Shown here: positions 1,220-36,668 of the stretch, in pieces
How positions within the stretch are numbered: position 1 is the first letter of the stretch
Layout: each line of letters begins with the position of its first letter
Origin: Tolypothrix brevis GSE-NOS-MK-07-07A
GTDB lineage: Bacteria; Cyanobacteriota; Cyanobacteriia; Cyanobacteriales; Nostocaceae
Direction: 5' to 3'
Assembly: GCA_019358985.1 (NCBI GenBank)
Contig: JAHHIJ010000048.1
Span: 1-37,768 of the forward strand
DNA: 37,768 nucleotides
Program-made: the position numbers and the translations under genes
Notes under the pieces: generated by a model
Told to the model about the DNA's origin: nothing
Seen by the model: only the letters and a program-made list of their open reading frames with translations
The model's database searches: none

Positions 1220-1310
1220 TAGACATAGGAGTGAAAATTAATTATGCGTTGTCTATAACCTTTGTAGAGACGCGAAATTTAGCGTCTCTACATTGTTTTT
1301 CACATCGGTT
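1220..1310 (-). repeat. MITE-like repeat family A, copy 3 (inverted, diverged)
   Basis: The copy begins TAGACATAGGAG (1220), continues AATTATGCGTTGTC and AACCTTTGTAGAGACG, and has a core palindrome with a different centre (1264-1291, GTAGAGACGCG ... CGTCTCTAC). The order is the reverse complement of copies 1 and 2. The distal end near 1300-1310 has decayed. Confidence 0.65.
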
Positions 1311-3995: not shown

Positions 3996-4073
3996 TAGAC
4001 ATCTCGATAAAAGTCCTAGAGACGTAGCAATGCTAGGTCTTTACAATGGTTTCGGGCAACGCATAATTAATTA
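3996..4073 (+). repeat. MITE-like repeat family A, copy 4
   Basis: The copy begins TAGACATCTCG (3996). The core around 4017-4045 (CTAGAGACGTAGCA / TGCTAGGTCTTTA) has mismatches on both arms. It is followed by ATGGTTTCGGGCAACGCATAATTAATT as in the other copies. The 3' ATGTCTA terminus is not recognisable. Confidence 0.65.
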
Positions 4074-4239
4074 GTACGACAGTTTGAGAATCCTCACAGA
4101 CTAATCCACTCTCCCTTGGGTCTGAAGTTTCATTGTGATCTTACAGGCATTCTGAAATAGATATGCGATCCATTTCTGATTTTGTAACGATGTGGGGGAT
4201 TTGACAGAGCGCGTTTTTGAATCCAGGGGGATATATTGA

Positions 4240-8224: not shown

Positions 8225-8953
8225 ATGTCCTTTAATCTAAAATCTGACGAGTATCAGTGTCTTGCTGACCTAAACTTATATGATTCTCCTGAATGTACGC
8301 GCTTGGCAACTCAAGCCGCAGTTGGGCGACATTTGCGGATAACATCAAATGATAATGATGTAGAGACGCGATTAATCGCGTCTGATGTAGAGACGCGATT
8401 AATCGCGTCTTTACAAGTTTGTTTGTGTGAGGATGATTATCCAGGATGGGTATCGCCAACAGACTTGAGTTTATTACAATCTGCTACTGTACTTTATGAA
8501 GCTAGTGCATTTTCTCAATCTCAGATCAAAAAACTGCTCGCTGAGGTAATTGTTTTTACCCAAAAAGCGATGCAACAAGCAAATTATTACCTCTGGGGTG
8601 GTACTGTAGCCCCAAATTATGATTGTTCAGGGTTGATGCAAGCAGCGTTCGCTTCGGTGGGTATTTGGATACCTAGAGACGCTTATCAGCAAGAAGAATT
8701 TACTCAGCAAATTAGTACAGCAGAACTAGAGGCGGGGGATTTGGTATTTTTTGGCACTCCCCAAAAAGCAACTCATGTCGGACTTTATTTGGCTGATGGT
8801 TATTACATCCACAGTTCCGGCAAAGATAAGGGACGAAATGGTATTGCAATTGACTGTTTGACGGAACAGGGAGATGCGGTTACTCAGTCATATTATCAGC
8901 AGCTGCGAGGTGCTGGTAGGGTTGTGAAGAGTTACGAACCGCAAAGACGCTAA
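8225..8953 (+). CDS. SH3b-NlpC/P60 gamma-D-glutamyl-L-diamino acid endopeptidase
   Basis: This 242-residue protein cleaves the gamma-D-Glu-diaminopimelate bond of murein tripeptides. It closely matches the structurally characterised Nostoc/Anabaena enzymes (NpPCP, AvPCP): an N-terminal SH3b domain (about 8-95) and a C-terminal NlpC/P60 domain (100-240). The catalytic residues are C134 (NYDCSGLM), H184 (THVGLYL) and H196 (YIHSSG). As I recall them, the NpPCP positions are 126, 176 and 188, so the numbering is shifted by 8. The shift is explained by an in-frame insertion: residues 45-62 are two copies of DVETRLIAS, encoded by a tandem 27-bp palindromic repeat inside the SH3b domain. No signal peptide is seen, consistent with a cytosolic recycling enzyme. 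Confidence 0.93.
   Translation: MSFNLKSDEYQCLADLNLYDSPECTRLATQAAVGRHLRITSNDNDVETRLIASDVETRLIASLQVCLCEDDYPGWVSPTDLSLLQSATVLYEASAFSQSQIKKLLAEVIVFTQKAMQQANYYLWGGTVAPNYDCSGLMQAAFASVGIWIPRDAYQQEEFTQQISTAELEAGDLVFFGTPQKATHVGLYLADGYYIHSSGKDKGRNGIAIDCLTEQGDAVTQSYYQQLRGAGRVVKSYEPQRR
8357..8410 (+). repeat. Two in-frame palindromic repeat units inside a coding sequence
   Basis: Units at 8357-8383 and 8384-8410 are identical 27-mers, each containing the perfect 20-bp palindrome AGACGCGATTAATCGCGTCT (8364-8383, 8391-8410). A 27-bp length keeps the frame and adds nine codons each. The same core occurs between genes at 36641-36668, so this is an interspersed repeat that entered the gene and then duplicated or inserted twice. 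Confidence 0.92.
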
Positions 8954-24178: not shown

Positions 24179-24269
24179 GGCATCGACCGCTCTTTTATTA
24201 TGTGTTGCCCGAAACCCTTGATTAGACGTAGCAGTGCTACGTCTCTACATCTTTTCTACCAGATGTCTA
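24179..24269 (-). repeat. MITE-like repeat family A, copy 5 (inverted)
   Basis: The left end reads GCATCGACCG and the right end ATGTCTA (24263-24269). TTATGTGTTGCCCGAAACCCTTG precedes the core TAGACGTAGCAGTGCTACGTCTCTAC. It lies between the convergent barrel and binding-protein genes. Confidence 0.75.
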
Positions 24270-25594: not shown

Positions 25595-25967
25595 AAGTTA
25601 TTTTGACTCCTCTGATTTATGGGAGCCTGAAAGTAAGATTCTAGACAGATTATTAGCTTTTTATCTTACAAGACTCCGGATGATAAATAATATCATCATC
25701 TTTAGGGCATCATCCTTAGGGAATAAAAGTGTTTGCTGCGTTTGTGTGGGATAGCAGTAGACATAGGAGTGGAAAAGATGTAGAGACGTAGCACTGCTAC
25801 GTCTCTACAAGGGTTTTGGGTAACGCATAGTTCATTTCTGGAGATGTCTAGTGTAGGTTTAAATGCGATCGCTTGAAACAACCAAAATTAATTCATCCCA
25901 TTTCTTGATATTTTTGCGGATTTTATACTAGCCACACTGAAGTTAATCAAACAACACAGCGACTTTC
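25595..25967. other. Gene-free interval
   Basis: This 373-bp gap between divergent genes holds the likely promoters of the binding protein (minus) and the GerMN-like lipoprotein (plus) and the family A copy at 25758-25850. No clear promoter motif was singled out. Confidence 0.55.
25758..25850 (+). repeat. MITE-like repeat family A, copy 6 (best preserved)
   Basis: The 93-bp copy has exact ends TAGACAT (25758-25764) and ATGTCTA (25844-25850), and the perfect core GTAGAGACGTAGCA/TGCTACGTCTCTAC at about 25780-25808, then AAGGGTTTTGGGTAACGCATAGTTCATTTC. It can serve as the reference for the family. Confidence 0.85.
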
Positions 25968-26625: not shown

Positions 26626-26705
26626 TGACATCGACCGAATTTAAATATGCATTATCCAGAACCCTTGTAGAGACGTAGCAGTGCTACGTCTCTACTCTAT
26701 GTCTA
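26626..26705 (-). repeat. MITE-like repeat family A, copy 7 (inverted)
   Basis: The left end is TGACATCGACCGAATTTAA and the right end ATGTCTA (26699-26705). The order is TGCATTATCCAGAACCCTT, then the core GTAGAGACGTAGCAGTGCTACGTCTCTAC. It sits 55 bases beyond the stop of the exoprotein gene. Confidence 0.8.
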
Positions 26706-36640: not shown

Positions 36641-36668
36641 TACAGACGCGATTAATCGCGTCTCTACC
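36641..36668. repeat. Solo core palindrome identical to the in-gene units
   Basis: GTACAGACGCGATTAATCGCGTCTCTAC contains the same 20-bp palindrome AGACGCGATTAATCGCGTCT as the two units inside the NlpC/P60 gene at 8357-8410. It lies 25 bases upstream of the SDR gene start and would form a hairpin in its leader. Confidence 0.85.

Follow-up and report, generated by a model that had tools for sequence, protein, structure and literature searches.

The endopeptidase gene and its palindromic units

The window analysed here, the whole stretch of 37,768 nt on contig JAHHIJ010000048.1 of Tolypothrix brevis GSE-NOS-MK-07-07A (GCA_019358985.1; genome 6.52 Mb), contains a murein endopeptidase gene whose product has the SH3_16 (residues 18–81) and NLPC_P60 (residues 121–204) Pfam domains (PF18348 and PF00877) with the conserved Cys and His expected of an NlpC/P60 protein with SH3b. 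The original prediction had described in it two identical 27-bp units, each with a perfect 20-bp palindrome, that encode DVETRLIAS twice within the SH3b domain, as well as the same palindrome between genes near position 36641. We confirmed the former at 8357–8410 and found the latter close to the expected position (Table 1), the units being inside the SH3b domain because SH3_16 spans the residues given above.

2evr and 2hbw, the nearest relatives with a solved structure, could be aligned over nearly the full length with a 15-residue gap at the repeat, the insert adding about 15 residues to the SH3b domain. This gap differs from the shift of 8 positions that had been stated for the downstream residues, a value that may correspond to the 15-residue gap minus the difference in N-terminal length. 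C134, H184 and H196, which we take to be the catalytic residues, are invariant across 34 endopeptidase sequences and, judged from sequence, the rest of the gene is under purifying selection, with dN/dS (loop removed) of 0.06–0.15 versus four congeners. Structure prediction from 34 orthologues gave a mean pLDDT of 53, too poor for placement of the loop.

Table 1. Features located in the window (positions in nt)
Feature	Position	Strand	Remarks
Related GTAGAGACG palindrome, core GCGAAATTTAGC	1264..1291	.	outside called genes
NlpC/P60 murein endopeptidase gene	8225..8953	+	open frame, 242 aa; SH3_16 + NLPC_P60; relatives 2evr, 2hbw
27-bp unit 1, codes DVETRLIAS	8357..8383	+	sequence GATGTAGAGACGCGATTAATCGCGTCT
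Perfect 20-bp palindrome AGACGCGATTAATCGCGTCT, copy in unit 1	8364..8383	.	
27-bp unit 2, identical to unit 1, also DVETRLIAS	8384..8410	+	probably tandem duplicate including host GAT codon
Perfect 20-bp palindrome AGACGCGATTAATCGCGTCT, copy in unit 2	8391..8410	.	
Related GTAGAGACG palindrome, core TAGC..GCTA	25780..25807	.	
Related GTAGAGACG palindrome, core TTCC..GGAA	26589..26616	.	
Related GTAGAGACG palindrome, core TAGC..GCTA	26667..26694	.	
Intergenic copy of the 20-bp palindrome AGACGCGATTAATCGCGTCT	36644..36663	.	between genes by simple ORF rule

A dispersed palindrome family in the genome

With up to one mismatch allowed, GAGACGCGATTAATCGCGTC matched the genome 71 + 79 times and its reversed control 0 + 0 times; since 150 matches stand against none, recurrence of the palindrome is not due to chance. 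The tag GTAGAGACG occurs 1060 + 1108 times (reversed control, 32 + 21) and the two-armed pattern GTAGAGACGN{6,14}CGTCT 907 + 976 times (reversed control, 1 + 0), the latter being present in 47 of the 59 genomes searched and most numerous in that of the window. In an 838-kb sample, a non-random one that comprised the window and the initial portions of four contigs chosen for their length among those with GAGACGCGATTAATCGCGTC matches, we counted 188 elements, mostly of 28–29 nt and with several core classes. The window had no match in Rfam at the gathering score.

The endopeptidase loop in orthologues

We read the loop that holds the units in 110 orthologue loci: 30 kept from a search of 59 relatives (54 matched; the window's genome included) and 80 from named GTDB-set genomes, the best 80 of 275. 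A looser parsing rule read all 110 loops, including nine, all short, that were readable by this rule only. With identical gene rows merged, 97 distinct orthologues remained and, in this set with its best 80 of 275 GTDB genomes, the loop was empty (14 residues or fewer) in 82 and longer in 15. Alignment with orthologues, proposed at the outset as a check, thus bears out an insertion, the segment being absent from 82/97, two of the four congeners among them. The 18-residue segment written in other codons, which the original prediction had named as evidence against insertion, was found in none of the 110 loci. That the units owe their likeness to chance, or are an ancestral segment lost elsewhere, is refuted by the reversed control (0 vs 150 matches) together with the empty loop in 82/97, and we give this reading practically no credence.

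Within the window's genus, represented by five genomes (the congeners, by matching loci, being Hassallia byssoidea VB512170, Spirirestis rafaelensis, Plectonema radiosum NIES-515 and a MAG), two have an empty loop (L040, L041), two have one unit (L038, L039) and the window has two. The empty allele reads GAT, TCAGCCGTTGAG, GTC; in one of the one-unit congeners the core is GCGAAATTTCGC (DVETRNFAS), in the other GCAAAATTTTGC (DVETQNFAS), whereas both units of the window allele have core GCGATTAATCGC. Outside the genus, palindromes with similar tags occupy the same site in Brasilonema bromeliae, L051 and L056, and altered palindromes are found there in Fischerella, Westiellopsis, Pelatocladus, Chlorogloeopsis and others, the loop being empty in all loci titled Nostoc among the 110. 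Some longer loops, e.g. L052 and L054, contain no clearly recognisable palindrome, and loops of this kind also differ in length without palindromes.

Filling and duplication history of the loop

Both 27-bp units open with GAT, a codon that empty alleles have just ahead of the site and that thus belongs to the host. Because of this, and because two congeners have one unit only, a single insertion with later tandem duplication of 27 bp would be simpler than two insertions; other tandem arrays exist in the genome, e.g. one on contig 15 with four copies set 27 bp apart. Of the claim that the gene had been invaded in frame twice, the in-frame invasion stands, given the empty orthologues, the other cores at the site and the copies in genes described below, and the 'twice' is made less likely by the one-unit congeners and the host GAT.

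Trees of the endopeptidase gene minus its loop, one quick and one careful, required a minimum of nine and eight changes between empty and long loops respectively. The careful tree puts the window's genus (5 rows, support 100/100) inside a 46-row set (97/95) whose other 41 rows are empty except for a 19-row Fischerella/Brasilonema set. A clade uniting the genus with Fischerella/Brasilonema is not rejected by the AU test (p 0.634, quick; 0.285, careful), so that repeated filling of the endopeptidase loop is favoured and no more than favoured; one old insertion with changing cores and losses is possible.

A related proposal is that palindromes are made or remodelled in place, through hairpin-arm template switching or conversion, such that one old insertion came to bear differing cores. 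This would account for the window, L038 and L039 having a common site and flanks with cores (GCGATTAATCGC, GCGAAATTTCGC and GCAAAATTTTGC) that differ symmetrically, it accords with the single clade that the AU test leaves standing, and it is in line with the rarity, in one congener, G004, of the core found at its endopeptidase site (3 copies vs 175 of the AAATTT type). It leaves hundreds of dispersed copies unexplained, however, and sits badly with the empty, ancestral-looking loop in two of the five genus genomes and with the placement of the genus among empty loops, where at least eight changes are needed; we therefore consider it improbable.

Palindromes inside other genes

We examined 59 exact copies of GACGCGATTAATCGCGTC, namely the listed exact 20-mer places plus neighbours in the fetched stretches, with one-mismatch copies left out. 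A copy was taken as in-gene when its ORF spanned 150 aa or more and neither end of that ORF was nearer than 15 codons, ORFs being defined by the longest-ORF rule with no gene caller. By this measure 26 of the 59 lie in frame within genes, spread over 22 ORFs, and so the search of the genome for further coding copies, suggested in the original prediction, was productive; four copies at the edges of ORFs of 327–483 aa and two in an 85-aa ORF were counted as outside genes. Only two frames are used by the 26 copies, 11 as TRLIAS and 15 as DAINRV (split by eye). Two of the three frames of GCGATTAATCGC contain no stop codon (VETRLIAS and RDAINRVS); they are identical on both strands because the core is a palindrome, and an insert of this kind would therefore be translated as a short linker.

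Pfam domains were found in all 18 of the 22 ORFs that were scanned (holding 22 of the 26 copies); among the four ORFs outside the scan are two in which the copy is within 30 codons of the called start. The hosts, with putative names from Pfam and sequence, include MurD, MutL, NadE, DnaX with an intein, CobN (2 copies), a LysA-type decarboxylase (2 copies), TamB (2), a GH38 mannosidase, an M1 aminopeptidase, a radical-SAM protein, two ABC proteins and a glycosyltransferase. The insert-bearing MurD is the sole match above the murD cut-off in the genome.

Other cores were found in genes as well: in the stretches read, 6/51 for GCGAAATTTCGC (55 exist), 4/109 for TTCC..GGAA and 1/123 for TAGC..GCTA, the last in a doubtful 157-aa ORF; TTCC in-gene copies that were found via GCGATTAATCGC (the L001 array, L008 and TamB) were left out of these counts. 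The 838-kb sample alone yielded 6/9 in genes for GCGATTAATCGC (4/6 minus the window), 2/6 for GCGAAATTTCGC, 4/87 for TTCC and 1/79 for TAGC. Since ORF interiors make up 68% of the sample, all core classes are depleted in genes, GCGATTAATCGC least. The 28-nt core GCGAAATTTCGC, all six in-gene copies of which read VETRNFAS, is rarer in genes than GCGATTAATCGC (6/51 vs 26/59, Fisher p = 2.7e-4), and length alone is thus insufficient to explain the difference between cores. A rule whereby 28-nt cores fall in genes and 29-nt cores outside, via the reading frame, was ruled out by the same GCGAAATTTCGC count.

The dnaX gene with an intein splicing domain (L167:9576-12026) has two in-frame palindromes in its linker. 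In a GAF/guanylate-cyclase protein on contig 4 (L001:24-2978), eight RDVPPERLYDSKEIG-like repeats form an array that is coded, in part or more, by in-frame TTCC-core palindromes.

Empty alleles at other in-gene sites

We made a comparison of 15 in-gene sites (11 with GCGATTAATCGC, two with GCGAAATTTCGC and two with TTCC cores; two membrane-protein sites were left out) with one to four relatives per site, drawn from G001, G002 and G004 plus G010 from another genus. An intact palindrome was absent from 34 of the 47 site-relative pairs, decayed and interrupted ones included, and 14 of the 15 sites had at least one relative without an intact palindrome. The same core was present in 3/47 pairs, another core in the same stretch in 6/47 (that of the neighbouring array in the case of L001) and, in 4/47 that involved both TTCC sites, a palindrome was present that our script left unclassed. 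In TamB, one internal repeat has a TTCC-core palindrome and three sister repeats are without it.

Congener loci also revealed a second kind of in-frame repeat at the same places: L224, L212, L227, L254 and others have proline-rich inserts from CCCCACTCCC-type short repeats, often in the same loops. In L223 (G001), the orthologue of L004, a nested insert of ~45 nt, itself in frame, interrupts the palindrome.

Probable origin of the endopeptidase insert

The dispersal of the palindrome, its empty and differently filled alleles and its in-frame residence in many conserved genes are established here. We think it very probable that the two units represent one dispersed palindromic element, tandemly duplicated, which landed in frame in a length-tolerant SH3b loop. 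A small dispersed element, with the tag GTAGAGACG at one or both ends and a variable palindromic core, would have moved by transposition-like copying and landed in this loop with the frame unbroken, the single inserted copy having been tandemly duplicated later. The translated linker would be tolerated where the loop can grow, in a product that presumably still folds and works.

With respect to MITE criteria, many copies have inverted ends, and neither a clean target-site duplication nor a fixed footprint was present in the alignments with empty alleles, relative to which net gains were 18, 21 or 27 nt with flanks changed; from one congener to the next, loops and flanks diverge too rapidly for such a duplication to be delimited.

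Both units pair in RNA as one 25-bp hairpin with a predicted energy of −43.2 kcal/mol, as could be the case had the insert been kept as useful, whether as an expression-tuning mRNA hairpin or as an altered wall-binding domain. We regard this as very improbable, for congeners live without the insert or with other cores, and the same element is found in unrelated proteins, as expected of a tolerated insertion.

Tags and RAYT genes

GTAG tags are present at both ends in 16 of the 59 copies, at one end in 33 and at neither in 10. The 65 tags divide into 32 matched by CTAC at the far end and 33 unmatched, and 17/59 copies are palindromic over 28 bp. One RAYT of the genome scores above the NF047646 cut-off (197 bits), and another is frameshifted (L034/L036, contig 38). 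The intact RAYT (L276, contig 39) is flanked by GTAGGATGCGTTAGCGACAGCGTAACGCATC (REP GTAGGATGCGTTAGCG...) and not by GTAGAGACG. Among 30 RAYT loci (L270–L299), a survey with no shuffled control and with the RAYTs of G004 outside the set, GTAGAGACG was observed in two, at +1391 and −832, which gave no RAYT association of the family in these 30 loci; other GT[AG]G stem-loops lie within 1 kb in 18/30, again with no shuffled control.

A GTAG REP mobilised in trans by RAYT would be in keeping with GTAG beside the stem-loop in 49/59 copies, with the 33/65 tags that have no far-end CTAC, with the RAYT encoded in the genome and with the GTAG repeats published for filamentous cyanobacteria (PMC3733652). 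It is nonetheless unlikely in our judgement, considering that the flanks of the intact RAYT belong to another REP, that only 2/30 RAYT loci have GTAGAGACG as against 18/30 with other GT[AG]G stem-loops (in a set that excludes G004, the congener next in copies), and that 32/65 tags could pair with CTAC and 17/59 copies are palindromic over 28 bp. Beyond the insertion of a dispersed element in this one loop, we tentatively put forward, as a possibility that falls short of an expectation, that GTAGAGACG palindromes constitute a cyanobacterial protein-coding class with an orphan mobiliser, whose GCGATTAATCGC lineage is almost freely tolerated in genes and may repeatedly have colonised the same MurD, MutL, CobN and endopeptidase loops in different lineages, with a steady supply of loop variation.

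Relation to known repeats

Rickettsia is the well-known case of palindromic repeats that invade genes in frame. Small dispersed repeats have reportedly been described as mobile in cyanobacterial genomes (Elhai et al. 2008), and the elements studied here resemble them in being short repeats of such genomes.

RPEs are portrayed as dispersed palindromes residing in frame in many unrelated conserved genes with their peptides tolerated (PMC2229807, PMC10969869). Like them, the palindrome is in frame in unrelated protein genes (26/59 copies, 22 ORFs); unlike RPEs, of ~105–150 bp and with Rickettsia-specific sequence, the units are of 24–28 bp and cyanobacterial. Di Nocera et al. (2013; PMC3733652) describe GTAG repeats from Anabaena, Nostoc and Cyanothece, and for several species they also list REPs that lie inside genes. 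The GTAGAGACG family is, like GTAG-tagged REPs including the cyanobacterial GTAG-12, -15 and -16 of that study, short, high-copy, mostly with a GTAG end and from filamentous cyanobacteria, and in keeping with that superfamily it is dispersed and within 20–40 bp; it differs in that about half of the copies have a GTAG able to pair with the far end, in the apparent lack of a RAYT beside it and in one core having 26/59 copies in genes. This comparison with GTAG REP families is by description, and the family may be one of them. REPINs and RAYT-linked REPs (Bertels and Rainey 2011; PMC3116915), which have also been studied in Nostoc punctiforme, are likewise hairpin-forming short repeats, but no RAYT linkage was seen here in 30 loci. 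A further paper (PMC6006769) reports that REPs have inserted into RAYT genes belonging to a subclass abundant in Cyanobacteria.

The original prediction that no established cyanobacterial counterpart exists was thus too strong, given the GTAG repeats, in-gene REPs (PMC3733652) and REPs in RAYT genes (PMC6006769) already published. In the open-licence literature, none of the matches listed described an in-frame set in housekeeping genes of cyanobacteria and, for the DNA tag GTAGAGACG, none was a bacterial-repeat paper; the encoded peptides had no matches. Cyanobacterial GTAG repeats are known, as are in-gene REPs of other organisms, and a cyanobacterial in-frame set of such scale was not found in the literature searched. 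A review of 2024 still calls a similar process in other prokaryotes conceivable (PMC10969869), although in-gene REPs had already been listed in 2013 (PMC3733652). It is well supported that this is a real, general phenomenon that works like RPEs and in-gene REPs, with membership in either not implied. Free-living Nostocales offer a natural experiment in which empty, filled and differently filled alleles of conserved genes exist in one genus, and the allele series allows tests of whether loops grow neutrally, of the reason for which genes tolerate one core but not the others, and of the means by which the repeats move.

Larger repeats around the palindromes

Part of the GTAGAGACG family may travel in larger units, as suggested by TAGC-core palindromes that lie inside longer repeats of ~60–80 bp with a shared flank, AAGGGTTT...AACGCATAATTAATT. 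In the window, such longer TAGC-core repeats are at 1020–1097, 4009–4086, 24193–24255, 25773–25850 and 26627–26695. At its start (1–298), a 93-bp tandem repeat is present three times, each with a GTAGAGACGTTCCGCCGGAACGTC palindrome of the GTAGAGACG family.
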